DNA of 64,000 nucleotides from a virus. The stretch is taken from positions 22,905-86,904 of the IMG/VR virus record IMGVR_UViG_3300045973_000445; one strand, written 5' to 3'. The first letter of the stretch is position 1; each line of letters opens with the position of its first letter. The position numbers and the translations under genes were made by a program. The notes under the pieces are model-generated. The model did no database searches, had not been told where the DNA came from, and worked only from the letters and a program-made list of their open reading frames with translations. Positions 26,686-56,038 of the stretch are shown in pieces.

Positions 26686-27381
26686 TTATTTTCCTATTTT
26701 CAATCCCAGATATTCTTTAACGGTTTTCCAAACACCAGCTGATGCTTGTTGTCTTTGTTCTTTTGTAGCACCGTGAGTAGTACTTGATCCAGAAGATATG
26801 TATTGAGTAGACATAAATCTATCTACTTCAAATAAAGATTTTCCTTCTTTAAGAAGCTCCTGCATTTTAAGTACAGTATGGGTATATTTAATTCCTTGTA
26901 ATTGATCAGAACCCGTTCCAGCTGGGTATAATGCGCCTGATAACATACCAACACCACGACCCCCTAATTTCACATACCCCCGATTTCTATCCACCACAAC
27001 TTCTTTACCATCTATATGCATTCTACTTCCATGCAAAGTACCCTCTCCCTTAAACTCTATTTTAGATTCATTTGATTTTTCCTTCACTCCCATCTGCTTT
27101 CTCATAAGATGAGCTGTTCCACCATTATCAGGAACACTATCCACTAATCTTTGAAGTCTCTCATCCTCTGTTTCCTTCTCTCCTTCTTTCTTGCTTCCCT
27201 TTGGTACTGGCTTCCAGCCCTCAGCAGTCTTAACAAACTCCCGTCCCCCCTGCCACGTCTTCCTTGTGCCAATCGGTGCTGCCTTTTCGAGGAGCTCCTC
27301 GATAGGCATAACGTAGCCAAATTCTGTATTGATGGCCTTTTGAAGATTATGTTGCTGTAGTTCTTTTTCCCAGTTTTCCAT
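26686..27381 (-). CDS. head-region protein with shared N-terminal tag
   Basis: 231 residues. Tag MENWEKELQQHNLQKAIN, then a GTRKTWQGGREFVKTAEGW segment of the kind seen in several head-attached phage proteins, a charged linker, and a C-terminal domain of about 120 residues (GTLHGSRMHIDGKEVVV). Function unknown. A GIY-YIG gene has been inserted just upstream, and its stop overlaps this gene's ATG (TAATG). Confidence 0.65.
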   Translation of the reverse strand: MENWEKELQQHNLQKAINTEFGYVMPIEELLEKAAPIGTRKTWQGGREFVKTAEGWKPVPKGSKKEGEKETEDERLQRLVDSVPDNGGTAHLMRKQMGVKEKSNESKIEFKGEGTLHGSRMHIDGKEVVVDRNRGYVKLGGRGVGMLSGALYPAGTGSDQLQGIKYTHTVLKMQELLKEGKSLFEVDRFMSTQYISSGSSTTHGATKEQRQQASAGVWKTVKEYLGLKIGK

Positions 27382-28265
27382 TATGCTGTTTTTATATTTG
27401 TTATCTCAATATTCTTGTTAGGGTTGTGCTTACAATTATCAAAATGATAATGATACATATTACTCTTTCCCTGAAACCCACAAAAAGGACATGCTAGAAT
27501 AGGTTTATTTCTTAAAGTTTCCCTTATCTTATTTCGATGACTTTCAGATACTACTCGATTTACTTTGCCTTCATTTCCTGGTTTCATTATACAATTATCA
27601 AAATGAAATTGCGTAGTCCCACTCCCACTTTTACTTTGAAAACCACACCACGGACAGGTTTTTAATTCACGAGTATCTGGTTTCTTTTCTTTAATAACTA
27701 CTATTCGATTAGGGTTCTTTTTACAATTATCAAAATGATATGTTCTCATATTAACTTCACTCTTACTTTGAAGCCCACAATAAGGACAGATAAGTATTGG
27801 TTTTTCACTAAATGTCTTTTTTATTTTCTCTTTAGTTGATTCCAATACAACATGCCCTATATTTATCCCTTTGCGATCTTCAATCATTGCAGATACTATT
27901 TTATCATAATCAGGATGATTAGTAAAGGTATCTCCTCCTCCACCCCCATTAGTTATATTATATCCTATTTCCCTATTTGTAGCTTTAAGTTCTGCAATCC
28001 ACCAAATTTCTCTTTCATTAAGATGATACTTATCTTTACAAAATTCAAGAATATCTCTTTTAAAACACTCATACTTATATTTCCTTATAGCATTATGAAG
28101 GGGTGTGTTGTGTCTGACACTACTTTGTCTACGAACACCATCACCAATATACCCATCATTCAATTTTTTAGTTTGATGTTTTCCCACATAGATTTTACCA
28201 TTTATAAGATTTGTAGTCTTATAAACTATAAAAAACATACCATCGTATTTAGTTCGAATCATCAT
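27381..28265 (-). CDS. GIY-YIG homing endonuclease with three zinc fingers
   Basis: 294 residues. GIY-YIG domain at 1-110: FFIVYKTTNLINGKIYVGKH, GYIGDG, NEREIWWI (catalytic Glu) and YNITNGGGGG. Then three C-x2-C...H-x3-C fingers ending HFDNC (about 175-285), each opening with a CP-x-CG pair, separated by short NUMOD-like links (VVSESHRNKIRETLRNKP). The nuclease should cut one site and the fingers read DNA. It overlaps both neighbours by a few bases and is related to the gene at 29793-30926. Confidence 0.88.
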   Translation of the reverse strand: MMIRTKYDGMFFIVYKTTNLINGKIYVGKHQTKKLNDGYIGDGVRRQSSVRHNTPLHNAIRKYKYECFKRDILEFCKDKYHLNEREIWWIAELKATNREIGYNITNGGGGGDTFTNHPDYDKIVSAMIEDRKGINIGHVVLESTKEKIKKTFSEKPILICPYCGLQSKSEVNMRTYHFDNCKKNPNRIVVIKEKKPDTRELKTCPWCGFQSKSGSGTTQFHFDNCIMKPGNEGKVNRVVSESHRNKIRETLRNKPILACPFCGFQGKSNMYHYHFDNCKHNPNKNIEITNIKTA

Positions 28266-29020: not shown

Positions 29021-29796
29021 TACTTGTAGCTATTATCCTGTGTAACAATACCCCCGTCATAATCATTCAATCCCAAAACAACATGAGATTTCTTTAATAC
29101 AGCATTAATCGGCATATTAACTGATTCCATCTGACCGTTATTATTTACAACAGTAGCTGATCGACTGTCATGCGGAATATCTATGACATGATAAGAAGGA
29201 GCACATAAATAAGTAATTGTAACAGTATTATTAAAACCACTAGGAGGTACAAAGTTAAGCAATACTATGTACTTGTTATTTTCATCAATAGAATAATCAC
29301 TCGTACTAAGTTTAACCAAAGGCAGAGTTGATAACTCAAAGTAAAAGATATCTAGTATTTCTGTTGGCAAGTAAGTTGCAAAAACAAATAGCCGACCATC
29401 TACAGATCGTACCCTTAGAGTTTCACTTCGTTTTGATGTTATCTCAGTAAAAGTAATACGATCCATTTCAGCCAGTCTATTTACATTCATTAGTGAAACC
29501 ATTATAGTCCCCTTATTTTCCTCACTCCACTCAGTGCCGTATTTGCCTTTCTTATTGATGTTACTTATAATAGCCCTACTTTTTATAGGATTTAAAAAAT
29601 TCCACCCAAATCCTCTACAATTTTGACAATCTACTCTTGCAGCACCAGACTCTCGTGTTTGGCAAGGGCACTGTCGTGCTTCTTCCAACAAAATGGAGTA
29701 ACCCTGCTGCCAAAGCAAAGCATCAAAAGCCTCGTTGTTAAACGAAGCCTTCGGCTGACCTGCCAGTGGTGGGGGACTCTGAGTTCTTATTGTCAT
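29020..29796 (-). CDS. neck protein with cysteine pairs
   Basis: 258 residues. An N-terminal knuckle, CPC...C-x2-C (CPCQTRESGAARVDCQNCRG), probably binds zinc; it is followed by beta-rich domains. Proteins with such a knuckle and this gene position are found in the neck modules of many tailed phages. A GIY-YIG gene overlaps its start by four bases. Exact role unassigned. Confidence 0.65.
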   Translation of the reverse strand: MTIRTQSPPPLAGQPKASFNNEAFDALLWQQGYSILLEEARQCPCQTRESGAARVDCQNCRGFGWNFLNPIKSRAIISNINKKGKYGTEWSEENKGTIMVSLMNVNRLAEMDRITFTEITSKRSETLRVRSVDGRLFVFATYLPTEILDIFYFELSTLPLVKLSTSDYSIDENNKYIVLLNFVPPSGFNNTVTITYLCAPSYHVIDIPHDSRSATVVNNNGQMESVNMPINAVLKKSHVVLGLNDYDGGIVTQDNSYK

Positions 29797-30926
29797 GCCG
29801 TAGCTAATTGTTTAATGTTCACAGATTCAACCGTTCGGTTGGGATTGTGCTTGCAGTTACCCCCATGATATCGTAACATCAGGCTTTTATTTTGACTTTG
29901 CATACCACAATACTCACAAGTAGTATATGGTTGTTTTTTAAAAGAATCACTTTTTCTTTTACTAGATTCCATTGAATGTACACGACCTCTATTGGATGCT
30001 CCCTTTTTTATATTTGTTTCTTTTTCCTTTTCAATTTGCTCCTGCGTAAGTACTCTATTTGGATTAAATTTACAGTTATCAAAATGAAACTGTGTGATAT
30101 TAGTCGCTCTACTTTGAAAACCACAATGAGGGCATATTCGCAATTCTCTCTGAGGAGGTATTACTCGATTAGGATTCATTTTACAATTATCAAAATGCCA
30201 ATGATACATAAATCCACTTTTTCCTAGCTTACCACAATGAGGGCAGATTAGCATAGGCCGATTATCCATCACAATTTTTATTAAATCTTTATACTCTTGT
30301 TTAGTACATGTTTCCCTATGTTTTTGATTGGATGCTTCCGTATGTGTCTTTCCTAAATTAGCTTCTCTCAAATGCTGTCTATGAATTTCCGACTTAGGTA
30401 CTCCTGCTAAGGCAACACTAATATTATTACATTGTTCTTTTGTTGCTATGTGTTTTTTTCCAGCATTTCCCGATGGTATTCCTCTTCGAGTCGGATGTCC
30501 TTTTTCTTTAATTTCTTTTGCCCGCTCAACCCCATATAATTCTACAAATGTTCCTCTATGAGCATCACCTACAGCTTTCTTTATCTTATTTTGAACATAT
30601 ACTGGTAATAAATTATAAATATCACCTCCTTTACCACCTTCATGTATATTATATCCTATTTTCTTATTACGAGCATCATGTTCTTTAATCCAAAATACTT
30701 CTTGTACAATCATATGTTCAAAAGAAACACAATATTCTATTACTTCTCGTTTAAACATATCAACACCATACTTATCTACAGCATTATTAAAAGCTGTACC
30801 AGATCCGATGTAACCATCATTTAATTTTTTAGTTTTTCGTCTACCTACATAAATCTTACCATTCACAAGATTTGTAGTCTTGTAAATTAAATAAAACCAA
30901 CCATCATATTTTGTTCGGATCATCAT
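29793..30926 (-). CDS. GIY-YIG homing endonuclease with NUMOD3 and three zinc fingers
   Basis: 377 residues, paralogous to the gene at 27381-28265. GIY-YIG: FYLIYKTTNLVNGKIYVGRR, GYIGSG, VQEVFWI (catalytic Glu), YNIHEGGKGGD. NUMOD3-like repeats follow (LREANLGKTHTEASNQKHRE), then three fingers, two with HFDNC and one altered (YHGGNC). The two proteins share near-identical first 30 residues. It overlaps the neck gene by four bases, as expected for a precise homing insertion. Confidence 0.88.
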   Translation of the reverse strand: MMIRTKYDGWFYLIYKTTNLVNGKIYVGRRKTKKLNDGYIGSGTAFNNAVDKYGVDMFKREVIEYCVSFEHMIVQEVFWIKEHDARNKKIGYNIHEGGKGGDIYNLLPVYVQNKIKKAVGDAHRGTFVELYGVERAKEIKEKGHPTRRGIPSGNAGKKHIATKEQCNNISVALAGVPKSEIHRQHLREANLGKTHTEASNQKHRETCTKQEYKDLIKIVMDNRPMLICPHCGKLGKSGFMYHWHFDNCKMNPNRVIPPQRELRICPHCGFQSRATNITQFHFDNCKFNPNRVLTQEQIEKEKETNIKKGASNRGRVHSMESSKRKSDSFKKQPYTTCEYCGMQSQNKSLMLRYHGGNCKHNPNRTVESVNIKQLATA

Positions 30927-32418: not shown

Positions 32419-33939
32419 CTAAGCTGGTATTGCTTTTCCGATATTCACAATCCTGGCAATCTTCTTAGGCGCAAAGAGCACCATCGTAAGGTAAGCCAAA
32501 ATCATAAATCTGAACGATGGGCTGGTTCTGGCCAGATCCATTCTCATGATCGGTGCAAGTTGTTTAAGAGCCCATACATCCAATGAGTTGTCAAGGACGA
32601 TGGTTGAGTGAGTGTTCGGGATGACCCTGTTACGGTCACGTACAGAAAGCTGAGCTGCTCCATCATAACCGGCTGCAAGTTCCGACTTGGTTATTGTTAT
32701 GATCGGGTAGAACTTAGCGGAAGCGTATGCTGTAGCTGCTTTCTCTGTGCGATATATAATAAGGCACTCAGCTGCGTATGCTCCATCCACATGTGTGAAG
32801 GTCAAATCCACCGATTCTGTTGCAACAACAGCCTGAACAGCTGTATCAAGAAGAGTCATTGCAGATTCACCGTAACGGTTCTTTGCAGTTACACCGTACC
32901 AGTATGAGCCCGCCCCATCGGTAAACCGTGTCTGGGTATCAGCAGGTACTGCTGTAGTTGAGTTTGTTATCGGGTTGGTTGATAAAGGAGCAGTAGGTGC
33001 TTTAGCACTTGTTGCAGCCTCGTTGTAGGCTTTCGATACTTTATAATCAAAGAAGATGTCACTTACAACGTTGATCTTGCCAAACTGTGTCATGATGTCG
33101 TTGACCGACTGACCCATTGTAGCTCCCTCAACACCACCCTGTTGACCAACGATGATCCTCTTGGATTCGTGGAACTGGCTGACGTAGTTTGAGAATACGA
33201 TTGGAGGCCCTATGATGGTACTTACCATTCCGAAGTTGTCGTTTACAACGCCATGAGCAGCATCTTCAACCATCTTATCAGAAAGGATGTATCCACGAGC
33301 ATCAACAACGCTCGAATCGGCAAAATACTTGTTCAGGTTGGCTGCACTTGGAAGAGCTGCACCAGTTACGCCTGTATAATGCTGTTTGAAGATTCCATCG
33401 AATTCGTCTTCGATCAAACGGCTGTCCGATACAGGATATGCTTTGTTGAGAGCCCTCAGAAGGAACTGAGTTTTATTTTTTACTTCCTGTGCAAGAGCAT
33501 CTCCTACACCTGATCCAAGTCTTACAAGTGTAAACGGGTGGGTGACCTCACCTGATACTCCGGTATACTTGATCAGCACAGATTCCCTACGGTAGATCGA
33601 ATCAGTAAACTGAGGGGTTTCCCCTTCTTTGTTAAAGATTCCGATATTCAAACCGTAATCAACCAGCTGGTTGAATTCTTCCACGGTGTTGTATGCATTC
33701 TGTTTCGGCAGAATCTTGTGCAACACGATGTGCTTATCCTGAGATGTTAAAATCTTCAGCATTGGTTCCAGTGATTCTGTTTTCAAAGCAGCTCCACTTG
33801 TCAGAGTGCCGATAAGACCCTGTCCTGTGGTATCACCAGCAGACATTGCCTTAGCAAGTTCATAAATCTTATCCGGAGAATCAATACCAGGGAACACCCC
33901 AGTCTCAAGCCCAGCGTAGTTGTATAAATCAGCGTTCAT
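32419..33939 (-). CDS. major capsid protein
   Basis: 506 residues, ends in TAG. Order around it (protease, scaffold, this gene, terminator, connector) is that of a capsid gene. The N-terminus has a likely removable part, with KAMSAGDTTGQG at 30-41, then a body with the helix-rich pattern of HK97-type shells. About residues 310-440 look like an inserted Ig/Fn3-like domain (YWYGVTAKNRYGESAMTLLD) before the final helices. It forms the head shell. No close relative is recognised by name. Confidence 0.88.
   Translation of the reverse strand: MNADLYNYAGLETGVFPGIDSPDKIYELAKAMSAGDTTGQGLIGTLTSGAALKTESLEPMLKILTSQDKHIVLHKILPKQNAYNTVEEFNQLVDYGLNIGIFNKEGETPQFTDSIYRRESVLIKYTGVSGEVTHPFTLVRLGSGVGDALAQEVKNKTQFLLRALNKAYPVSDSRLIEDEFDGIFKQHYTGVTGAALPSAANLNKYFADSSVVDARGYILSDKMVEDAAHGVVNDNFGMVSTIIGPPIVFSNYVSQFHESKRIIVGQQGGVEGATMGQSVNDIMTQFGKINVVSDIFFDYKVSKAYNEAATSAKAPTAPLSTNPITNSTTAVPADTQTRFTDGAGSYWYGVTAKNRYGESAMTLLDTAVQAVVATESVDLTFTHVDGAYAAECLIIYRTEKAATAYASAKFYPIITITKSELAAGYDGAAQLSVRDRNRVIPNTHSTIVLDNSLDVWALKQLAPIMRMDLARTSPSFRFMILAYLTMVLFAPKKIARIVNIGKAIPA
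33745..33852 (-). repeat. 36-residue segment shared with prohead protease, capsid copy
   Basis: Capsid residues 30-65. The matching segment in the protease lies at 34875-34982 and is the same at 30 of 36 residues, with clear DNA similarity. It probably marks a protease or assembly recognition element. Confidence 0.85.
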
Positions 33940-33974: not shown

Positions 33975-34688
33975 TTATTTAACCAGGCGGATGCCGAAGT
34001 TCTCAAACAAGTCCATCGCAACGGTCTGGTTTATTGTTCCACCCCCACCATTGTATCGTACGATAGAATCCTCGTAGCTTTTCTTAAGCTCAGGCTCAAC
34101 GGCTTTATTCATGCCGTCTTCAAGACTCTTCAGGATCTGCTCCTTGTGAGCTGATACAGAAAGCATCTTCTTTCCACTCTCATCTTCCTGCTCGCCACCG
34201 AGGGCTTTCTCAAAGAAGTTAGCTCCCATTGCGTTTTTGATTGCTTTATTGCCAAGAGGCATGTCCGCAATCTTCTCAACGAGGGTAGTTACAGAATCGA
34301 TAGATTTCTGAAGATCAGCAATCCTGTCCTCTGTATCGAGCGACTTCTGAATCATCTCGGTAACAGTCTTGAACTTGCTGTTCATCTCATCTGAGAGACC
34401 CTTTAGCATTTCAGAAGAAACTGCTTTTTCAGTATCCTCTTCTTTTTTCTCTTTCTCTTTGGATTCCCCAGCTTCGTGTTCTTCCTTATCTTCCTTGTCA
34501 TCTTCCTTGTCATCTTCTTCCCCTTCTTTGTCTTTTTCCCACGGCTTCTCGCCCTTTAGGAACTCGACAACTTCAGGGAATGCACGAAGTTTAGAGGAGT
34601 CTTCACTCTTCATAAACTCGGCATAATCATCTGTCGACAGTAATGTCTTGAATGATTTTATGGTTTCAATAGCCTGATTGCCTGTCAT
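33975..34688 (-). CDS. scaffold-like acidic coiled-coil protein
   Basis: 237 residues. A very acidic stretch (about 50-85, GEEDDKEDDKEDKEEHEAGE) and coiled coils (DEMNSKFKTVTEMIQKSLD; RIADLQKSIDSVTTLVEKIA). It lies between the protease and the capsid, the scaffold position. It would organise capsid assembly and be removed. The C-terminal 30 residues (GGGGTINQTVAMDLFENFG) may bind capsid. Confidence 0.75.
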   Translation of the reverse strand: MTGNQAIETIKSFKTLLSTDDYAEFMKSEDSSKLRAFPEVVEFLKGEKPWEKDKEGEEDDKEDDKEDKEEHEAGESKEKEKKEEDTEKAVSSEMLKGLSDEMNSKFKTVTEMIQKSLDTEDRIADLQKSIDSVTTLVEKIADMPLGNKAIKNAMGANFFEKALGGEQEDESGKKMLSVSAHKEQILKSLEDGMNKAVEPELKKSYEDSIVRYNGGGGTINQTVAMDLFENFGIRLVK

Positions 34689-34769: not shown

Positions 34770-35603
34770 TTAATTTTTTAGTTTATTATGCAACCCCTTC
34801 TGAATCGCCTTCTTTGTATCCTTTGTGAAGTTGTCCCAGTTGTCCGCAGCCCAGTTTACACTGGCTATCGGAATAGTTAAGATTTTTAAATCAGGATCCA
34901 ATGATTCTGTTTTAAGAGCTGCCCCACTTGTTAAATCCCCTACAAGCCCCTGTCCTGTTTCAGCACCAGCACTCATTGCCTTGGTAATTGTGAAGTCCTT
35001 GTTCAAAGTAAATTCACAGTCTCCCAACATCCCTTTAAAAAGATAATCCACGTTTGCAGGGATGTCATAATCAAGACTTTCCTGAACCGTACTCATACCT
35101 CCCTTACATATATCAGCATATGTCTGACCATTTTTTGGCATGAACGTTAATGCCATATGGGTGATCATTGCTTTAGTGATATGATTCTTGTTATGAGGAT
35201 CCAATTGTAAAGGAACACCCTCAATAGACCAAGCTAACTTTCTGTCACTTCCTGATTCCTTCATGATATGCACAGTATCCCAAAGATCACGAGCCAATGG
35301 CGACTTCTCCCACAATCTAGCTTTTACAAAAAGTTTATTGTCCTTAATCTCAGCCATTACAGGTTCTCCTACGAATGCCTTTGGTGATTTCTTTGCCCCG
35401 TGTTCGTAGTTCACAAGTCCTTTGCTTTTGAATACACTCAGCTCAAATCCACTAGGTTCTAGTGATTGCTCATCTGTATCATATGCATTAGTTGAAGCAC
35501 ATCCCTGAAGATACATATTTTTATATCTGTTCTCTCCTGTTTGTTCTCCTGCTTTTTCTAATCCATCTACAGGCACAAAGAAATTAAAATGTTCGTTTTT
35601 CAT
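34770..35603 (-). CDS. prohead maturation protease
   Basis: 277 residues. Serine-protease features of caudovirus prohead proteases: LVNYEHGAK (H68) and LAWSIEGVP (S126), followed by ITHMALTFMPKNGQTY (residues near 147-162). It cleaves scaffold and capsid during maturation. The C-terminal part (208-243) nearly repeats capsid residues 30-65, perhaps a self-cleavage or docking site. Position just before scaffold supports the call. Confidence 0.82.
   Translation of the reverse strand: MKNEHFNFFVPVDGLEKAGEQTGENRYKNMYLQGCASTNAYDTDEQSLEPSGFELSVFKSKGLVNYEHGAKKSPKAFVGEPVMAEIKDNKLFVKARLWEKSPLARDLWDTVHIMKESGSDRKLAWSIEGVPLQLDPHNKNHITKAMITHMALTFMPKNGQTYADICKGGMSTVQESLDYDIPANVDYLFKGMLGDCEFTLNKDFTITKAMSAGAETGQGLVGDLTSGAALKTESLDPDLKILTIPIASVNWAADNWDNFTKDTKKAIQKGLHNKLKN
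34875..34982 (-). repeat. 36-residue segment shared with capsid, protease copy
   Basis: Protease residues 208-243, beginning KAMSAGAETGQGL and ending DLKILT. Partner copy at 33745-33852. Confidence 0.85.
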
Positions 35604-35608
35604 ATCTT

Positions 35609-38600
35609 TTATTTTAATTCAGTTACTTTTGCTTTCATCTTTCCAATCTCTTTCTCTAAACTCTTTACATTCTCTTCTTTTGATTTGATCTTAAGCTGCT
35701 TAAAAGAGTCCAACGTTTGTTGTCTGTATTTTAATTTTGATGCATCATACGTCTCTTTACTATTATTAAAATTAACAGCTGCCCCTCGACTTACGATTTC
35801 GTCCCAGTCAACATTAAGACGCATATAATTCTCACTCTGTTGTAAGATTTCATCATCTGTTAATTTCTTAGCTGTTTCGACTTCTTGTTTATACAACACA
35901 ACCCGTTTTGTGTAAGATTCGATTTCTTTATTGAGTTTTTGTACTTTAGTTAACTTTTGGATCTTTTCTTTAATCTTATCCGCTTCCTCTGTGTTGTTTG
36001 TTTTTGGTAATCTTGTATTTGTTAGATAACGGAAATGCAACTGTTGTATATTATATCCACCAGCATATATAACTTCTGTATGAAAATGATACCTTTGTCC
36101 ATCTCTATTTATGGACGCTTCAACTACAAAAGAACCGTTATTACCAACCCTCGAACTTAAATCGCTTAAAACATCTGTAGGTTTAGTATATACATTAATA
36201 GCTTTAACTAAATTCCAAACTAATGACAATCTAGTCAATTCTTTATCATACTTACCCATTTGAGATCTGTCATGTTCCTTAGCGTAGGCATCTTCATATA
36301 ATTTAGCAATACGTTCTATTTCCGGATCCATCACAGCAAGGATCGACTCAGTTAAAGTATTAGATTTTTGTTGATTAGTATTACCCCTCTCCATACCATA
36401 ATGCTGACCAACTCTACCTAATTTACGATTCTCATCATCATTCACATAAACACCTTTCTCAAACACATCCTCCATCGCCTTCTGAAGTTCAGGAGACCCA
36501 CAAATATCTGACATCGTCTTGAGCACCCCGTGATTATCCAGGATAACATCCATCGGGATCAAAGCATCTCTGTAAATAAGCCCATTCACACGCACCGCAG
36601 GTGCTATCTGCTTTGGTACAAAGTCATCCGCATGTTGTGTGTAAACACAATCAGCTATTTCAGTATCCTTCATCCCCTTCCCTCGCAAAGCATAGTACTG
36701 CTCCTTTGTTATCTCGATGCAAGGCACTAGCTGTTTATTCATCTTAGCCACCTCCAGCCTCACCCCTCCATCAATAACCAATCGGTTCATCCCATCCTTT
36801 ACAGCAACCACGGGAGGCATCGAGTGAATCGAGTAATCCTTTCTTAACTTAATTGTAGGCTTGTGTAGCTTTACCTTCTCCTCCTGACTGATTCCCATAG
36901 TCCACGGAGAATTCAAAGTAATACTATGCTCATCTCCTCTCTCAGAAAGCCCTCGCTCAACCTCTTTATACTGACTCCAATGATCCAAACTCATCTTATC
37001 AACCCTATGTGGGAGCATCTTAGATATAGGCTGTTCCGAGGATACACTCTTTGCCGTGATCCTACTATGTACGTTCAATACTGTTCTGTCATTCGTTTTG
37101 AAGTACTTGTCAAAATGCTCTTTATTCAGATTGTAAAAGGAATAATACTCCGCAAACGCTTCACTGGGTGATTTATGCGAGTAATCCGTTATCAAAGTAA
37201 CTGATGCATTCGATCCCCCTCTTGGTATATTCTTTTGATCGCCTGTAGCGGATAAACCTCTTCTCAGCTCTTCCTGCTGATACGACCATCCACATTCAAC
37301 AGTAAACTTCTTATAATCATACGTGGCTTTTCCACCTATCTTTTTATCTACGGCATGTCCTATTTCATGTAGCATGACCGATTTGAACTCTGTAGGCTTG
37401 CCTAAGACACCCCAGTCGGCTGCTCGCTCCACGCACTTGGCACTCAGATTGATTCGTTTTTCATTCGCACTGTACCAAGCATATCCTCCATGATCGCCCC
37501 CAGAGTAATCCTTATTTGTAATCAGGTTCAGCTCATCGTTTGTTTTGAAATGCCCGTCTGGAAGTTCATTTATGATATTCTCCAAGTTCTGAATCGCTGG
37601 CAGATGATCCATCGTCCAATCTCCCTCTACTGATTTATTGTAATGCTTCATAAACCGTAGGTAAATCAGATCTTTGAACCCACCCCCAAACTCATCATAG
37701 TCCTTTGATAACTTAACACCTCCCGACTTCAGTCGTTCAATCAAATTCAGTTCAAGACCATCATCTCTTTTGTAAGTAAGCTCATCATGTGTAGTTTCAT
37801 TATCATCCACAGCCTTAATTGTCTTCCAAAATAAACGTACTCGATGTGTTCCTGACCAATCTGTTATTATTGTAATCTCCTTTCCTACATACTTTTCCAG
37901 AAAACTATAGTCCTGATTCTTTGCCTTTGCATAAATCTTAGAATAAAACTCATCCGGAGTCATATCGATAGTCACTCCGTACATCTTCATCTGCTCGTCC
38001 AAAGAATCCTGAGTGATTCGATCCGAATACTTCTTAACATACTCATCGAACTTCTTCTGAGCATAGTCCTTGCACGATTCCCGTACTCCCCAGTTGTCTT
38101 GGAACGCCCCCTCAATCATATCTACGGCATCAAACTTAGTCATTCTTTTCTCTGACATCAGCTTATACTCCTCTGGCAAAGAATCTGCCAGTTTCTTAAA
38201 CTCATCATAGATTGCTTTCTTTTCAGGATCCTTAAAATCCAACCCCTCTTTTACCTGATCCCGTGTGCGCTTTACAATATCCAGTAGCTGTAATGCCTTC
38301 TCCTCATTTATAATATCTGGATCAGATTTAAAATCAGCTCGTACCTGTTTGCGTATTTCTTTTTTTGTTTCATCTGAAAGTTTATCAAGAACACGATCAC
38401 CACCAGCATCCTTATTAGCATCATTTAATGCATTAGCAATAGCCTCGGAAAGATTCATGTCATTCTTCATAAATAGTTCAGAGAATTTATTTCTGAAAGC
38501 ATACCTACCTGCACCATACCATCCTTCAGATTTTTTAAATTCATCTGAATTAAAGAAATTCCCCCCTTCAGCTTCTCCAAATAAATTAATCTCATGGTCA

Positions 38601-38803
38601 AGGCACTTCTCACCATTGATAGGAACTTTGCAACCTATAATCTCCCGTGCAGTAGCATCTGCCTCTCTACCAATCTGATCAAAGCGAGCGTTTGTCTTGA
38701 CAGGAATCCAGCCTGAACTATAGGGGGGAAGAGGATCATGGGCTTTTATCATCGGCCCCTGAGCCCATTCATGAATCACGCCCACAGGACAGACTTTTCC
38801 CAT
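35609..38803 (-). CDS. large head-region protein with zincin metalloprotease domain
   Basis: 1064 residues. The first 400 hold long helices without a known motif. A zinc protease site lies near 479-485: SVMLHEIGHAVD (HExxH), with a possible third ligand in SPSEAFAEYY (about 545-554). Residues about 660-700 (RLVIDGGVRLEVAKM, LVPCIEI) resemble a ParB/Srx-like fold. A KLGRVGQ-x-YG motif at 794-803 recurs in the protein at 57280-58191. The C-terminus is coiled coil. It lies between a Nudix/AAA+ gene and the prohead protease. It may be packaged or injected; that is inference. Confidence 0.75.
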   Translation of the reverse strand: MGKVCPVGVIHEWAQGPMIKAHDPLPPYSSGWIPVKTNARFDQIGREADATAREIIGCKVPINGEKCLDHEINLFGEAEGGNFFNSDEFKKSEGWYGAGRYAFRNKFSELFMKNDMNLSEAIANALNDANKDAGGDRVLDKLSDETKKEIRKQVRADFKSDPDIINEEKALQLLDIVKRTRDQVKEGLDFKDPEKKAIYDEFKKLADSLPEEYKLMSEKRMTKFDAVDMIEGAFQDNWGVRESCKDYAQKKFDEYVKKYSDRITQDSLDEQMKMYGVTIDMTPDEFYSKIYAKAKNQDYSFLEKYVGKEITIITDWSGTHRVRLFWKTIKAVDDNETTHDELTYKRDDGLELNLIERLKSGGVKLSKDYDEFGGGFKDLIYLRFMKHYNKSVEGDWTMDHLPAIQNLENIINELPDGHFKTNDELNLITNKDYSGGDHGGYAWYSANEKRINLSAKCVERAADWGVLGKPTEFKSVMLHEIGHAVDKKIGGKATYDYKKFTVECGWSYQQEELRRGLSATGDQKNIPRGGSNASVTLITDYSHKSPSEAFAEYYSFYNLNKEHFDKYFKTNDRTVLNVHSRITAKSVSSEQPISKMLPHRVDKMSLDHWSQYKEVERGLSERGDEHSITLNSPWTMGISQEEKVKLHKPTIKLRKDYSIHSMPPVVAVKDGMNRLVIDGGVRLEVAKMNKQLVPCIEITKEQYYALRGKGMKDTEIADCVYTQHADDFVPKQIAPAVRVNGLIYRDALIPMDVILDNHGVLKTMSDICGSPELQKAMEDVFEKGVYVNDDENRKLGRVGQHYGMERGNTNQQKSNTLTESILAVMDPEIERIAKLYEDAYAKEHDRSQMGKYDKELTRLSLVWNLVKAINVYTKPTDVLSDLSSRVGNNGSFVVEASINRDGQRYHFHTEVIYAGGYNIQQLHFRYLTNTRLPKTNNTEEADKIKEKIQKLTKVQKLNKEIESYTKRVVLYKQEVETAKKLTDDEILQQSENYMRLNVDWDEIVSRGAAVNFNNSKETYDASKLKYRQQTLDSFKQLKIKSKEENVKSLEKEIGKMKAKVTELK

Positions 38804-38962: not shown

Positions 38963-41434
38963 TTATTTACTTTTACTTCTCATCATTTCATCAAAAGCAC
39001 CTATTACACTATCAAAGTTAGATACTATCTTTCTCTTGATCCTATCTGTATCCAATCCCTGATTTAAAGCTCTGTTGGCTATAACCACTGCCGTGTAGTA
39101 TGTTCTGGTATTCAGATCGTTTCCTAGCTTATCCTTATTCTCTTTGATCATTTCATAAGCCAAATCACGTGCTTCTTGAGTTACAGGGATAATAGTTGTT
39201 TTATCAGCTGAATAAATATCTATTTTATCTTTAATCATACCTAGCTTTAAGACAGTCTCATCTACTGTCATGGTGAGATTACTACAAAGAGCTCTAGACT
39301 TAACTGCCTGTGCTATATCCTTCGTGGTTAAGTTTGTAATTGCAATAACCCGTCCTTTAAATGAGAATACATCTGGTATTTTTCCAGATTCCTTATCTCC
39401 CTCAATTATATAAGCATTCCTTCCTGTTTTGTTATCTATCTGAGAATCTTCTCCGGAATCCAAACCAGATTTTAAAAATCCCTGCACGTCTTCCGTTATC
39501 AAAAACGAATCACAGTCATCAAAAATGATTAACTTATCCCGATGCCGAAACATCTCTGCGTAAACCTGAACAGGAGATATCCTACCCTTTATAACCACAT
39601 AATCATACTGATCTTTATTAGGTTGAATCTCAGCATCAAATCTCCTGAGATTCATTTCTTTTAGTAATCTATTTAGCTCAAAGGTTTTCCCAACCCCGCC
39701 TGTACCATATGCTATTGCAAACTTAGCTCCAGCATCCCCCTCAATAACCATCTGAAGGCTGTCCTTGTAATCATCCCACAACTCTTGTATATCTTCTGGT
39801 TTACGAGTAAGCATCTTGTTTTGCTCTTTAGCTTCTGGAGTATCGTTGTTGGCCTGTTCCTTCCGAATCTCGGTCTTTATCGTTTCGGACTGATCTGGCA
39901 GATCTTTGAGATTGATATCGGCCTGCTTGATATATCGCTGTGGATAGGTCTCCCCTGTGAGAAGTGTCAGAACTTTAGGATCGTATATCCCCATGTTGAT
40001 TAAGCTGTAGACCTTCTCATTCTTCTTCATCGATCCTCCAGCTATAGCTGCCACTGCATCTTCAAAGGTTTGCCCTTCGACCTTTTCCGTTTCCTTTGTA
40101 TCTGCAAACTTCTCCGACTCGCCTGTTGCTGGGTTCACCCAGCGAATAGCGTAGTGAATCTGGCCAGACTTGGCTTTAATTTGGACTTTCTTTGGGATCA
40201 GGTGTCCTAGTGCTCTTGCCTTCTCAAACTCGGCAAACTCGCTCTTTTCGATGGTTTTCAGCTTGCTGTAGTATTTTGGATTTTCCCACAAGTGATCCCT
40301 TGTTATCTCACTTCTTTCTTCGGCATCAGTAGTATGTTCTCTCTCTTCCGTTACACCAATCTGCCATTCCTTTGTAAGCTCTTCAAGGCTGATTTTATGT
40401 TTCTTAGCGATGTCCTCAAGAGTCTTCCCATCGGCACGACCTCCCTGAAGTTTCTCTTCTTTTTCAAAATCAGGGGGCTGCATCTTCTGTGCTTTCATAA
40501 ACCCACCCTCAACCATCTTCCCGATAATCTTCTCATCCGATAGAGATATCACTTTCTCATTCTTGACCAGTCCTTCGGCCACAGCCTTCTTAATACTTAC
40601 CACCTCTTCAATACCAAGAATCTTATAGACGTTATCCCACATATTTATAAATTGAGTAGGATAACTATAAAGATCTTTAACTGAAATAAAAGCAGTAGCC
40701 CGTGTTTCATCAACATCCACTACAGGAGACTGCTCCCTATCATCAATCATCGACATAAAATAATCTATGTGAATCTTATCTTCCTCAAACTCACCTACCC
40801 ACCTACAATCATCTACTTCAAAGCCTGTTTCCTCCAATAACTCCCTCCTTGCTGCCACTTTTATATCCTCTCCCAAATCCACATGTCCTCCAGGAAGAAC
40901 CCATAAATTTGTACCCTTTTCTGCACCACCAAGAGGCTGACGCTGCACAATCAAAATCTCCCCGTTCTGATTAAACACAATGTTATCAGAATACCTAACT
41001 TTGTCCTTTGTAATGGCCTTGATCAACATATCACACTCATCCAAAGCCAGCTCATTATTCCGATAAGATAAGAGGGTGTTTTCTATAAAGTCATTCCTTT
41101 TCAAATCGGCTAATGCTTTCTCAAAATCAGGATGCTTTACTATATATGATTTTTTGCTGTCTTCCAGCTTGGTGTATTCCTGTTTCTTTCCACTCAAGAA
41201 ATTCAGATATCTCGATGTCAGACCATCCTGCTGGGATTTGATCAGCTCCAGAACCTCTGGTTCCTTTTCTGCTTTTTGCCATACATCCAGTTCCTTCGTA
41301 CTGTTCAAGTACTCTCGTGCCATCAGATCAATCTCTGACTTTAGCAATTCCGACTGCTCTATCACTAACGCAAAATCACGAAGGGCTTCCTCCGTGCTTT
41401 CCAAATGCAAAAAACGTCTGAGTTCTTGAAACAT
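38963..41434 (-). CDS. Nudix hydrolase - DUF5661 - AAA+ ATPase fusion
   Basis: 823 residues. N-terminal helices (1-120). A complete Nudix box at about 183-205 (GHVDLGEDIKVAARRELLEE then TGF). A DUF5661-like segment at about 338-392 (LEDIAKKHKISLEELTKEW; DHLWENPKYY). An AAA+ core with Walker A GTGGVGKT (about 577-584), Walker B KLIIFDDCD (about 634-642) and a sensor-like AITN. All catalytic signatures look intact. Nudix enzymes hydrolyse nucleoside diphosphate derivatives; the AAA+ part may remodel proteins or DNA. Its place in the head block is unusual. Confidence 0.85.
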   Translation of the reverse strand: MFQELRRFLHLESTEEALRDFALVIEQSELLKSEIDLMAREYLNSTKELDVWQKAEKEPEVLELIKSQQDGLTSRYLNFLSGKKQEYTKLEDSKKSYIVKHPDFEKALADLKRNDFIENTLLSYRNNELALDECDMLIKAITKDKVRYSDNIVFNQNGEILIVQRQPLGGAEKGTNLWVLPGGHVDLGEDIKVAARRELLEETGFEVDDCRWVGEFEEDKIHIDYFMSMIDDREQSPVVDVDETRATAFISVKDLYSYPTQFINMWDNVYKILGIEEVVSIKKAVAEGLVKNEKVISLSDEKIIGKMVEGGFMKAQKMQPPDFEKEEKLQGGRADGKTLEDIAKKHKISLEELTKEWQIGVTEEREHTTDAEERSEITRDHLWENPKYYSKLKTIEKSEFAEFEKARALGHLIPKKVQIKAKSGQIHYAIRWVNPATGESEKFADTKETEKVEGQTFEDAVAAIAGGSMKKNEKVYSLINMGIYDPKVLTLLTGETYPQRYIKQADINLKDLPDQSETIKTEIRKEQANNDTPEAKEQNKMLTRKPEDIQELWDDYKDSLQMVIEGDAGAKFAIAYGTGGVGKTFELNRLLKEMNLRRFDAEIQPNKDQYDYVVIKGRISPVQVYAEMFRHRDKLIIFDDCDSFLITEDVQGFLKSGLDSGEDSQIDNKTGRNAYIIEGDKESGKIPDVFSFKGRVIAITNLTTKDIAQAVKSRALCSNLTMTVDETVLKLGMIKDKIDIYSADKTTIIPVTQEARDLAYEMIKENKDKLGNDLNTRTYYTAVVIANRALNQGLDTDRIKRKIVSNFDSVIGAFDEMMRSKSK

Positions 41435-41444
41435 ATCTGTAAAA

Positions 41445-41945
41445 TTAAAATCCTAACTGATCCACAAGAGATTTAGATAATATCACAATCCTATCATCTG
41501 CTATATTAGCTATCACCGTCTGGAGCTTGAGCTCTTCTACGCTCCCACGAACATACACTCCAGCCACCTGATTGAACTCCCTCATCGGTACTGATTTCTG
41601 TAAATCAGAGTGTATCTGATCAAGACTATATTGTTTTGGCAAATCCCCGATAGTAATCTCAAAGCCTTTTATCAGAGCCCTGTCAATGCTTCCTGTAGGC
41701 AAGTATCCAATGGACTTTACTAAAGAGCCCATCCTATCCAGATTGGACTTTTTATTCGCACGGAGCATATCTGTCTCAGCGAATAACCTCTCTTTAATTT
41801 CCTGTCCAGATTTCTCAATCTTCTCTTCAGCTACAGCTGGTTTGCTATCCAGAGACTTCTCAAAGGAATTCACATTCTGCAATTGAAAAGAAATAGAAAG
41901 AATGCGCTCTATGTTCTTTGCACTAATTTCGTTCTCCCAGTTCAT
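41445..41945 (-). CDS. head-region protein with N-terminal tag-like sequence
   Basis: 166 residues. The start (MNWENEISAKNIERILSISF) resembles the MEN-W/F-E-K tags of the proteins at 24944-26674 and 26686-27381. The remainder is helical, with EKIEKSGQEIKERLFAETDM, and ends in a small mixed domain (AGVYVRGSVEELKLQTVIA). No known function. It directly precedes the Nudix/AAA+ gene. Confidence 0.6.
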   Translation of the reverse strand: MNWENEISAKNIERILSISFQLQNVNSFEKSLDSKPAVAEEKIEKSGQEIKERLFAETDMLRANKKSNLDRMGSLVKSIGYLPTGSIDRALIKGFEITIGDLPKQYSLDQIHSDLQKSVPMREFNQVAGVYVRGSVEELKLQTVIANIADDRIVILSKSLVDQLGF

Positions 41946-48251: not shown

Positions 48252-49196
48252 TTATGCTGTATATGTTTTATCCCCTACTGTTACTGTAACTGTTCCTTTA
48301 ATACCCAGTCGCTTCTCTTCCCGTGCCAGTGCTTCATCATCATAAACAAACTGCTTCTTGACCTTATCCCAGATCTGATAATCATTCTTTTTTCTTAGCA
48401 AACATCTACAAAATGGATGAATTCCTGTAACTGTTCCTTTCCAATCCCCTACCTTCCTCCCGATATTGCTCCCATTCGCAATCAACTCGCTCAAGCGAAA
48501 CAGCCTCGGCTCACTACCCAGTCCCTTTGTTGTGTACAACGCTATGCAGTGTCTACAAGCTCCTGCATATACATCTTTATAAACCCACGGATCCTTTCCT
48601 TTATTAGCCTCAGCAATCGTCACAGCTCGTCCCTGTTGAAAGATGTTATTCATCTCGGTATCCACGATCCTTCCCAGATCTTTGCTCCAGTCACCCGTCC
48701 TGTGACCAATATCACTTACAATATTAGTCAAGGCTTTGCGCTGAGCCACTCCAGCTATAATCTCTTCCTTAATTATATTTTCATACTCAGACCGAGCCAG
48801 CCAGCCGTTGATCGATCCCTCAACATCTGACCTGATCCTATTATCGAGATTCTTCAGATGCTTGTATGTCGCTTGCCGAGCTATGTTATATTGAATCGTC
48901 TCGAAGGGTGTCAGTGGCTGATACTGATTCTTCTGTAAATACTTCTCAAAGTCAGCATACTCTAACTTTTTAGAATTTGCATCTCCTATTAACTGAGTCA
49001 ATCGCCCCAACAAAAACATCCTATAGTAAGCAGGATACAATCCACCCAGTCCTACTACATTCAATCCAGCAGATGTCAGGATTGCTTTATCCACCTCTGA
49101 CAGAACTCCCTCGCCTAGATTCACACCAATATAGACCAATATGTTCTTACTGATCTGCCTGAGTATGTTTTCTATCTGGAAAGGGTTTAATATCAT
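48252..49196 (-). CDS. minor head protein, Mu gpF-like
   Basis: 314 residues. Long helices are followed by the gpF signature: ACRHCIALYTTKG (CxxC), GTVTGIHPFCRC (H, C, C), a probable zinc site. Such proteins sit on the portal side of the head and are needed early in assembly. The final 30 residues (GTVTVTVGDKTYT) are a short strand pair. It overlaps a 48-residue gene by four bases. Confidence 0.85.
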   Translation of the reverse strand: MILNPFQIENILRQISKNILVYIGVNLGEGVLSEVDKAILTSAGLNVVGLGGLYPAYYRMFLLGRLTQLIGDANSKKLEYADFEKYLQKNQYQPLTPFETIQYNIARQATYKHLKNLDNRIRSDVEGSINGWLARSEYENIIKEEIIAGVAQRKALTNIVSDIGHRTGDWSKDLGRIVDTEMNNIFQQGRAVTIAEANKGKDPWVYKDVYAGACRHCIALYTTKGLGSEPRLFRLSELIANGSNIGRKVGDWKGTVTGIHPFCRCLLRKKNDYQIWDKVKKQFVYDDEALAREEKRLGIKGTVTVTVGDKTYTA

Positions 49197-53606: not shown

Positions 53607-54338
53607 TCAAAATTTACCTGTTAAACCTCTACGCACACCTTCCCAAACACCAACCCCAATTAATGAATGAACCCACCACTTATCAATCCATCTCTGATTA
53701 TCCTGGATGATGACCACATCCATTGTATTTATCTTTATATACTTGTTTTCTGTAGAGAATATACCCTTTGGCACTAACTTCAAATTCAGAAATCCAGTTC
53801 CAACATAACCTATTGAAATACTACCTGAAAAAGGAGTATCCAACTTAAACCATGCTTTCTTTGTAGAATCCAGCCCAGCATCAAGATTCAGATATTTATC
53901 ATGCTGTTCTAGTAATTGGAACGGATACCGAACATAGTTCCTTTTGACTCCTGATGAATCCTTTATTGTTATATACTCTGTTTTTGGAGGTAGTCCTAGT
54001 AATGAGTCCTGTCTATGTATAGTTCCTGACAGTTCTGTATTCGTAACCAGATCTTTCATGTGTATCTTCTTCAGAAGCTCTTCTCTTACCAGTCCTGCTT
54101 TGATAGCATCTTCCTGTCCTATTATAATAGCATTCTTTTCCCAGACCTGATTCTGCACCCCCTTTATCTTTACGGTAAGATGTCCTATGGAATCTTTAAG
54201 GGCTATTATGTTGCTCACCTGCTGCTCTAACACTCTCTTGGTGCTGCACTTGCCAGCTACAAACGCAAGGGCTACAAGCCCAGCAAACAGGCAAACGAGC
54301 ACTACTATTTTCTTATACTTTAACCAGATCTCTTTCAT
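53607..54338 (-). CDS. membrane-anchored coiled-coil protein
   Basis: 243 residues. Short cytoplasmic start (MKEIWLKYKK), one transmembrane segment (about 11-28, IVVLVCLFAGLVALAFVAGK), then a coil (QVSNIIALKDSIGHLTVKIK) and a mixed domain. Rz-like spanins share the TM plus coil layout, but this protein is longer and lies beside the portal. It overlaps the portal stop by four bases. Confidence 0.6.
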   Translation of the reverse strand: MKEIWLKYKKIVVLVCLFAGLVALAFVAGKCSTKRVLEQQVSNIIALKDSIGHLTVKIKGVQNQVWEKNAIIIGQEDAIKAGLVREELLKKIHMKDLVTNTELSGTIHRQDSLLGLPPKTEYITIKDSSGVKRNYVRYPFQLLEQHDKYLNLDAGLDSTKKAWFKLDTPFSGSISIGYVGTGFLNLKLVPKGIFSTENKYIKINTMDVVIIQDNQRWIDKWWVHSLIGVGVWEGVRRGLTGKF

Positions 54339-56038
54339 TTTGCGGATAATTCAGTATTTATGTATTTTATCAATTCATTTGTAATCGGGTCTTCTGACTT
54401 CCCCTTCTGCATCCCTTCTTCAAAAGAATCAAATGGATTTTTTGCCCCACTGGAATCTCCTCCATTTTGCTGGTCAACCATTCCGTTCATTCCTGCGCCC
54501 CCGAAAGCCTGCTGAGCTTTTTGTTGTGCGTACACGCTATTTAAAATTGTATCCTTTTCAGGATCGAATACTCTCCCAGAATACTCTTTAAATTTATCCT
54601 CAAGTGAAACCATGCCGTTAGCCAACTTCTTTACATCATTGTCTAGTTTTTGCGTCTGGTCTTCCACATCAACTCCTGTAAAAACAAACTGATAATTTGA
54701 ATCAAACTCAGAAACTATAAACTTGTCTATATTCTTTTGAATCACTTTAAGCAGGGGCTTCAGCCCTTTATCCTTGCTGTGATCCTGACGTTGCTTTTGT
54801 CCCCCCTCACCAAACAGAGTGGTCTGCTGACTAAACCGAAATCCTAGCTCTGAGGGATCCATGTGAAACACGCTACAGGCCACCAACGTCAGAAACTCCA
54901 TCCATTTGCTGAACTCCATCTCTTTGTTGGTATTTTGCATATCCACCCAGTTCAGCTTATCCGCCTCAAAGATCGGAACCTTATGAGCATTCTGCCAACC
55001 TGTAACCATCGATCTCCAAGCCGACCGGAAGTCATTAAGCATTCTGGGGTCTACCCCACCCTGCATCGTAAAGAACCCACGTGGGTTTGATCCATTCGTA
55101 AAGAACCGACCATTATACTCCATTGACTCCAGAAGCCATGTGACGACACGCATCAGAACCTCCAGTTCGCTCTGACCGTATCCATTGGCCATAATAGAAC
55201 TCTGCTTGTTGCGTACCGCAAAGCACATCTCCCACGGATACCAAATCACATCCTGTTTTGTTTTTGGATTCTGAAGAACCCTCTCACGCCACACCTGAAC
55301 ATAATGAGGAAGATACTCATGCCCTTTGTAATTCAAAGACTCATACTTCCCATTTTCTGTGTTGTAATTAGGATCGATGGTCTCCAGCAACCTGATCGTT
55401 GCACTGTCCACACAATCATACGATAGCAAATCCCCTCCCCGTGTGCGCTGAGTCTCAAAGCACCCCTGATCAAGCTCAAGCATGTCCTTTGGGAATATCT
55501 TTAAAAAGTCATGGAAGTCATTGTGAACAGTAAACTTGGCATCAATACCCCCGTTCTCCAAGAAGTCAATTATCTTCTCAATAGCCCGTTTATCCTTATC
55601 TGTGTTCTTATACTCCTCTTCGAATCGTCCCATCCTACGTTTGATCGTCCACCCAGGCTTTCCTTCATCATCCGAATAATCAGCAAAATCTAGTATCTGA
55701 TTGATACGTGTGCTGATTACAGAAAAGATCATCGGGGTAGCTCCCATCGAACGCAAGAAGTCAAACGGCACAGTCTTAACGGCTGTCTTGTAGCCCATAC
55801 CTGTATAAAACTCATTATCGGGAGCAAACAGGAATGCCTTCTGCTGATCTTTAAAATCCTTACCAGTCATCGACTGCTGATACTGCAATGCCTTCATAAT
55901 ATCATCTGGCTTATTGCTCTCCAGCAACCGCTGATGCAACAGCGACTTATGAATAGATAACTTCTGCATCTGTTCATCAATCGCTGGCAGCGTCTGAGGA
56001 AGCCTTATTGCTGTATTTCTGCTTTTTCGATTTGACAT
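54335..56038 (-). CDS. portal protein
   Basis: 567 residues. Typical portal features: FYTGMGYKTAVKTVP, VISTRINQILDFADY near the wing, a conserved WYPWEMCFAVRN block and a GYGQSELEVLMRVVTW helix before the crown. The C-terminus is low-complexity, with a tail rich in charges. It forms the dodecameric ring through which DNA enters and leaves. The overlap with the glycosyltransferase gene is about 34 bases. Confidence 0.9.
   Translation of the reverse strand: MSNRKSRNTAIRLPQTLPAIDEQMQKLSIHKSLLHQRLLESNKPDDIMKALQYQQSMTGKDFKDQQKAFLFAPDNEFYTGMGYKTAVKTVPFDFLRSMGATPMIFSVISTRINQILDFADYSDDEGKPGWTIKRRMGRFEEEYKNTDKDKRAIEKIIDFLENGGIDAKFTVHNDFHDFLKIFPKDMLELDQGCFETQRTRGGDLLSYDCVDSATIRLLETIDPNYNTENGKYESLNYKGHEYLPHYVQVWRERVLQNPKTKQDVIWYPWEMCFAVRNKQSSIMANGYGQSELEVLMRVVTWLLESMEYNGRFFTNGSNPRGFFTMQGGVDPRMLNDFRSAWRSMVTGWQNAHKVPIFEADKLNWVDMQNTNKEMEFSKWMEFLTLVACSVFHMDPSELGFRFSQQTTLFGEGGQKQRQDHSKDKGLKPLLKVIQKNIDKFIVSEFDSNYQFVFTGVDVEDQTQKLDNDVKKLANGMVSLEDKFKEYSGRVFDPEKDTILNSVYAQQKAQQAFGGAGMNGMVDQQNGGDSSGAKNPFDSFEEGMQKGKSEDPITNELIKYINTELSAK

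Follow-up and report, generated by a model that had tools for sequence, protein, structure and literature searches.

A Nudix-DUF5661-AAA+ gene in a phage head block encodes a probable packaged precursor with candidate lysine-directed cleavage signals between its domains

In phage HK97 the cleaved bond follows a lysine. The domain removed is 103 residues long (PMC10275583). The specificity of T4 gp21 is L/I-X-E, and T4 internal proteins carry capsid-targeting propeptides of 10-19 residues (PMC9026906); the prohead protease signal of SPN3US is A-X-E (PMC10052503). That a head-packaged phage Nudix enzyme counters ADP-ribose-type signals is also a published idea (PMC9503650), and large multi-enzyme polyvalent proteins have been described among portal and terminase head genes (Iyer et al. 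2017, PMC5512222). Neither the packaging of Nudix domains in heads nor the injection of multi-domain proteins is a new idea. The predicted lysine-directed signal described below, its delimiting of enzymes in one chain and the Nudix-DUF5661-AAA+ set appear to be new: no earlier description of the signal or the set was found in the open-licence papers searched. In that literature DUF5661 is named nowhere, nrdC.10 is named in one paper, as a weak AAA match, and no link between polyvalent proteins and a prohead protease was found, bar a reference title. Text searches for 'AAA+' in PMC9503650 and for 'AAA' and 'ferritin' in PMC5512222 each returned 0 matches.

The gene lies in a 64,000-nucleotide stretch (the window) of an 86.9-kb IMG/VR record, IMGVR_UViG_3300045973_000445, from a phage with a contractile tail, to judge by its sheath and baseplate genes. 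Its single intact reading frame has an ATG start, 823 codons and no internal stops. The original prediction of one 823-residue protein joining Nudix, DUF5661 and AAA+ domains was borne out. A frame error fusing separate genes was excluded because relatives retain the identical joined frame; a relative at locus L010 has the same joined architecture, with 54% identity over the alignment. Domain-by-domain profile searches found Pfam NUDIX, Pfam DUF5661 and phrog_1250 (residues 520-710, E 3e-21), together with invariant AAA+ residues (Table 1). No Pfam AAA model fired on the protein. The AlphaFold model had long helices over residues 14-142 (14-55, 59-100, 104-125 and 131-142), a Nudix fold at about 146-275 and, starting near 545, an AAA+ fold, with low-confidence stretches at 313-336, 385-400, 444-453 and 509-541. 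The helical N-terminal domain (about 140 residues) and a beta-hairpin linker at 413-433 were both absent from the earlier description, which also gave no strand; the gene is on the minus strand. Residues 1-139 would form a targeting or scaffold-like propeptide.

Table 1. Features of the fused gene and the surrounding head block, in window coordinates. A slash marks a predicted bond.
Feature	Position	Strand	Evidence
Portal protein	54335..56038	minus	phrog_12, E 3e-32
MuF/SPP1 gp7-like minor head protein	48252..49196	minus	weak family match
Upstream 166-aa protein, core/scaffold-like, 6 motif sites	41445..41945	minus	motif density
Whole gene, 823-aa precursor (predicted), 94 kDa	38963..41434	minus	ORF and translation
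Residues 1-139, long-helix N-terminal domain, candidate sites after K32, K66, K106, K139	41018..41434	minus	AF2
Residues 140-283, predicted mature Nudix fragment, 16.5 kDa	40586..41017	minus	Pfam NUDIX and flanking sites
Pfam NUDIX, residues 152-255	40670-40981	minus	E 1.7e-17
Residues 315-397, predicted DUF5661 fragment, 9.8 kDa	40244..40492	minus	Pfam DUF5661 341-397, E 2.2e-13
Candidate sites K397 (IEK/S) and K405 (FEK/A), then hairpin linker IPKKVQIKAKSGQIHYAIRWVNP	40115..40252	minus	motif and predicted beta-hairpin
Residues 406-823, predicted mature AAA+ fragment, 47.1 kDa	38966..40219	minus	phrog_1250 and invariant residues
1064-aa neighbour, HEIGHAVDKK (zincin-like) and ParB-like stretch	35609..38803	minus	motifs in translation
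Head maturation (prohead) protease	34770..35603	minus	phrog_1028, E 4e-35
Probable scaffold, [LIVFM]xK[AS] 7 sites vs 1.2 expected	33975..34688	minus	motif count
Major capsid protein, SU10-like, predicted propeptide end LAK30/A31	32419..33939	minus	profile and motif

The gene was predicted to lie among head genes rather than replication genes, and the co-directional order agrees: portal, MuF-like, other genes, the 823-aa gene, HExxH/ParB-like, protease, scaffold and SU10-type capsid. A replication role drawn from the neighbourhood was rejected for the head-block forms. The 159-bp gap to the next gene held no convincing promoter or terminator. The 1064-aa neighbour has a ParB-like stretch, VIDGGVRLEVAKM, and an NRKLGRVGQ tag, and gave no Pfam or PHROG match. 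On the other side, the motif-dense 166-aa protein adjoins the fused gene in L010 too. Alignment of the prohead proteases showed invariant H68 and S126, the candidate catalytic residues, and an invariant K17 site near the N-terminus. The C-terminus of the protease is a near copy of the N-terminal segment of the capsid protein (KAMSAGxxTGQGLxGxLTSGAALKTESLxPxLKIL). L010 shows this likeness too, and profiles extend it to L091, L094 and L095.

Searching IMG/VR with the single 823-aa protein gave no relative, and alignments of its parts were needed. A capsid-protein scan yielded 80 loci; relatives with an SU10-like capsid numbered about 75 loci, and 75 capsid proteins were analysed. A GTDB scan with the capsid alignment gave only three MAG contigs (Sulfuricurvum, Myxococcales, Gemmatimonadetes). 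Fused genes were found in the same order in L010 (925 aa, with a rubrerythrin/EncB-type ferritin and DUF6496 in place of DUF5661), and a fused gene of 957 aa that includes DUF5661 fills this slot in L094. In L013 a shorter fusion, Nudix-tag-AAA+, lies between the MuF and protease genes. Nudix and AAA+ are separate genes within the block in L011 and in the isolate Chryseobacterium phage MA9V-3. After deduplication, 40 loci contained all three of the MuF, protease and capsid genes; of these, 4 had a fusion, 13 Nudix only, 11 AAA+ only and 12 neither. The 11 were scored in a scripted interval and include L011, whose Nudix gene lies further upstream, and so amount to 10 plus one unfused pair. The N-terminal helical and Nudix module also heads an L095 protein with ART-PolyVal and GNAT, and Nudix heads an L099 protein with DUF5661 and ART-PolyVal. 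As annotated, Nudix and AAA+ are interchangeable, recurrent accessories of the head block, found in fused, separate and single forms in the same slot; the fusion is therefore one combination, and DUF5661 is one among several interchangeable modules.

A general functional pairing of Nudix with NrdC.10 was not supported: few of 80 AAA+ loci had a nearby Nudix signature, and these were mostly head-block forms. One isolate is an exception, Vibrio phage D479 (L007:5156-6672), in which a stand-alone Nudix gene lies beside the NrdC.10 homologue outside any head block. Ferritin-like domains were seen in candidate head-block polyproteins at L010:8285-11062 and L091:5342-7411, and that of L010 matched the EncB encapsulin cargo model at E 7e-17, below the model cut-off. 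Encapsulins share the HK97 capsid fold, a parallel to the EncB-type ferritin in the head block.

The motif [hydrophobic]-x-K-[A/S/G] was first noticed by reading scaffolds and was then tested by counts. In an unbiased pair count over scaffold and protease proteins, KA was the most enriched dipeptide, followed by I.K, L.K and KG, which gave the logo [ILFMV]-x-K-[A>G,S]. Observed over expected counts of [LIVFM].K[ASG] were 6.0x in scaffolds (z 35) and 5.4x in proteases (z 74; the protease is often fused to scaffold), 2.8x in Nudix proteins (z 15), 2.6x in fused proteins, 2.2x in portal and 2.1x in AAA+ proteins. The motif was depleted in MuF (0.5x) and in slight excess in genes downstream of the capsid gene (1.3x); the 1064-aa neighbour showed no enrichment. 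Control motifs (R, E, or K then D/E/N/Q) stayed at about 1 or lower in almost every class, an exception being the R motif in capsid proteins (1.8x). When the loci of the first sighting were removed and the remainder clustered at 40% identity, the enrichment held: scaffold 5.9x, protease 5.3x, Nudix 2.55x (z 12), AAA+ 2.2x (z 5), portal 2.0x, fused 3.3x (one protein only), MuF 0.5x and downstream of capsid 1.3x. Composition as the cause of the motif was rejected by whole-protein and within-compartment shuffles and by the control motifs. Every capsid protein (75/75) carried a site between residues 8 and 50, in almost every case LxKA; in an alignment of seven, K30-A31 was invariant and the residues upstream were variable. 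As a positive control, the T4 gp22 scaffold contained 8 [LI].E[ASG] against 1.3 expected (p 0.002) and 0 [LI].K[ASG], which matches the published L/I-X-E signal.

Candidate sites lay almost wholly outside Pfam domains. In 14 Nudix-bearing proteins with 158 sites, 1 fell inside any Pfam domain (33.8 expected) and 0 inside Nudix (22.7 expected). Depletion within Nudix is partly compositional, because [LIVFM].K[not ASG] was also low there (7 vs 29.8 expected). In the other domains, however, the control motif showed no depletion (27 vs about 17 expected), whereas the test motif did (1 vs about 11 expected). Within-compartment shuffles of Nudix and fused proteins gave 3.2-3.6x outside domains and about 1.0x inside; in stand-alone AAA+ proteins the motif was at 1.75x even inside the domain. 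The nearest site upstream of Nudix was 7-15 aa away in 13/14 proteins (53 aa in L013) and the nearest downstream 17-40 aa. The 823-aa protein follows this pattern, with K32, K66, K106 and K139 before Nudix, K283 and K314 between Nudix and DUF5661, and K397 and K405 before AAA+. Two further matches, K616 and K655, lie inside the AAA+ fold and are probably left uncut; the motif is short, so not every match can be a cut.

Stand-alone head-block AAA+ proteins had a site within the first 28 residues in 13/14 cases, compared to 9% of controls (binomial p 5e-13, a value that ignores kinship; the held-out proteins form 5 clusters at 40% identity). In most of them the propeptide site is followed by a short tag whose last residues are GKFDWR. 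The remaining tag types of these loci had a site 15 residues or fewer before them in 77-100% of cases, compared to 14-16% of random positions. The linker IPKKVQIKAKSGQIHYAIRWVNP of the 823-aa protein occupies the position of this N-terminal tag (equivalent stretch 406-433); a pattern for this linker type had 0 instances and was left out of the tag test.

The bracketing of domains by protease-type sites bears on whether the chain is cut at all. The 823-aa protein could be a classical polyvalent protein, packaged and injected uncut and working as one multi-domain effector, much as the virion RNA polymerase of N4 goes into the particle intact (PMC5512222); the head-block slot and the link to ART-PolyVal proteins would suit this. 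We consider it unlikely, as the sites avoid the folded parts and in other loci this slot holds the same domains as individual proteins. The evidence points instead to a head-packaged, proteolytically processed precursor, which we regard as the probable nature of the 823-aa protein. The original prediction of a virion-linked or injected enzyme is strengthened by the conserved slot, the protease-type sites and the propeptides of relatives, which resemble the T4 CTS; one fused enzyme fits less well than a precursor that is processed to individual enzymes. A look for virion proteomics or cleavage results found none for any family member, and the MA9V-3 genome paper does not report mass spectrometry.

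The sequences themselves show the domains and their gene context, their recurrence, the enrichment of the motif and where it is placed, and the intact catalytic residues. That the protein is packaged, cleaved at particular bonds and injected, what its substrates are and how it affects the host, we infer as follows. The polyprotein would be made late, alongside the capsid proteins, and its helical N-terminal domain would draw it into the prohead core. The neighbouring phrog_1028 protease would cut after the lysine of [LIVFM]-x-K-[A/G/S], destroying the N-terminal domain and releasing a Nudix enzyme of about 144 aa, a DUF5661 unit of about 83 aa and an AAA+ ATPase of about 418 aa with the beta-hairpin tag as its new N-terminus. 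The freed units would remain inside the head, pass with the DNA into the next host cell and do their work ahead of phage gene expression. Injection and activity in that cell are suggested by analogy with T4 Alt and internal proteins and by published arguments for packaged Nudix and polyvalent proteins (PMC9503650, PMC5512222). For the clade with SU10-like capsids as a whole, we propose tentatively, at somewhat less than an even chance, that injected effectors are encoded as true polyproteins from which a Lys-directed prohead protease excises interchangeable cargo (Nudix, AAA+, DUF5661, EncB-type ferritin, ART and GNAT), many units gaining an N-terminal retention or ejection tag.

The Nudix domain carries the box GX5EX7REUXEEXGU at residues 183-205, which places it in the Nudix superfamily, and is the sole Nudix match in the 86.9-kb record. 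Foldseek matched it to DR1025, MutT, RppH and NudC. Family models for RppH and MutT scored above NudE, all far under their cut-offs (NCBIfam NudE only E 4e-4). Of the alarmones, NAD-type molecules and signalling nucleotides first suggested as substrates, none was favoured over another. The substrate of the freed enzyme would be a nucleoside-diphosphate-linked compound, most plausibly a defence product of the host; that it counters a host defence signal is a possible role, on balance doubtful.

The AAA+ module is complete by profile and invariant residues, in keeping with the predicted intact Walker A (577-584) and Walker B (636-642). Residues K583 (Walker A), D639/D640 (Walker B), N701 (sensor 1), R714 (Arg finger) and R777 (sensor 2) were invariant in 18 relatives. 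Matches by tblastn were to T4-type NrdC.10 and to Bacteroides and Chryseobacterium phage proteins, and judged from sequence the module is a member of the NrdC.10/phrog_1250 family. An RFC5 profile match was weak (E 3e-5); the best structural rows were dynein, CbbQ/NorQ and Rubisco activase, with CbbQ/NorQ remodellers and dynein at Z about 11-12. This resemblance, with the late head block, would fit a chaperone or remodeller of head assembly carrying Nudix as a passenger, with no injection. Such a role seems quite improbable: the AAA+ is dispensable, being absent from 25/40 loci with a complete block, and the protease-bounded N-terminal propeptides suggest prohead entry. T4 NrdC.10 is homologous and has the same motifs, but the versions in T4-like phages are short and stand-alone and, as in KVP40, lie in early regions and not among head genes. 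On one reading, the SU10-like-capsid clade therefore delivers by virion what others express early, and the freed unit would be an early remodelling ATPase. The same non-head location could be taken to favour a late enzyme of nucleotide-pool or host control that remains in the cell where it is made and is merely encoded among head genes. This is very improbable indeed, as it leaves the motif enrichment, the linker placement and the repeated portal-MuF-protease association unexplained.

As a processed precursor, the protein resembles several known systems in part. Nearly all stand-alone AAA+ relatives begin, like T4 IPI-III and Alt, with a short propeptide that has a protease-type motif at its end; the fused protein has its first candidate site at K32, and its equivalent stretch lies internally, at 397-433. 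The motif-dense scaffold and hydrophobic-x-P1 pattern recall the gp21 system, but P1 is Lys here and Glu in T4, and here one chain holds several enzymes with predicted sites between them. SPN3US gp245 offers a parallel in its three-residue motif, its multiple cuts in long propeptides and the packaged ejection proteins of that phage (PMC10052503); its signal is Glu-directed, in contrast to the predicted Lys-directed signal here. Like polyvalent proteins, the 823-aa protein has at least two distinct domains in one polypeptide, a phage head context and a zincin-like neighbour, and a related N-terminal and Nudix module heads ART-PolyVal proteins. It contains no catalogued polyvalent domain itself, its relatives' modules being fused to ART-PolyVal in L095 and L099. 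Processing of polyvalent proteins was ascribed to zincin-like peptidases (PMC5512222), whereas here the sequence points to the prohead protease. In myoviruses, packaged Nudix domains for which injection was proposed are joined to MuF, portal or capsid protease genes or lie close to them (PMC9503650); the present domain differs in scoring nearer to RppH/MutT models than to NudE and in being bracketed by candidate cleavage signals.

The findings suggest that the Glu-directed prohead signal of T4/phiKZ has a counterpart directed by Lys. The motif would serve as a sequence signature for capsid-entering proteins of the SU10-like-capsid clade, and many hypothetical head-block genes therefore become predicted cargo. 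Multi-enzyme phage proteins need not act as one, because a single packed chain could give several proteins on release. Ordinary trypsin proteomics would mask Lys cuts because trypsin too cleaves after lysine, which may explain why such a signal could be overlooked.

Outside the head block, a 576-aa protein (24944-26674) carries three different tags, GGKVIGHTKSGKPIY, SGIYKPTKENLKHGRAG and GQIGETRTWHGVQMKKV, each directly after an FEK-A/S/G site, and is a candidate for another polyprotein. Two homing endonuclease genes (phrog_314) lie near the capsid gene, at 27381-28265 and 29793-30926; in L010, similar ORFs occur between the zincin-like and protease genes and also after the capsid gene. A TnpB-like ORF was seen between portal and MuF in human gut phage MT835500 (L002:5308-6519), and at L009:6911-8947 a MuF-like gene is apparently split by an intein-like insertion.
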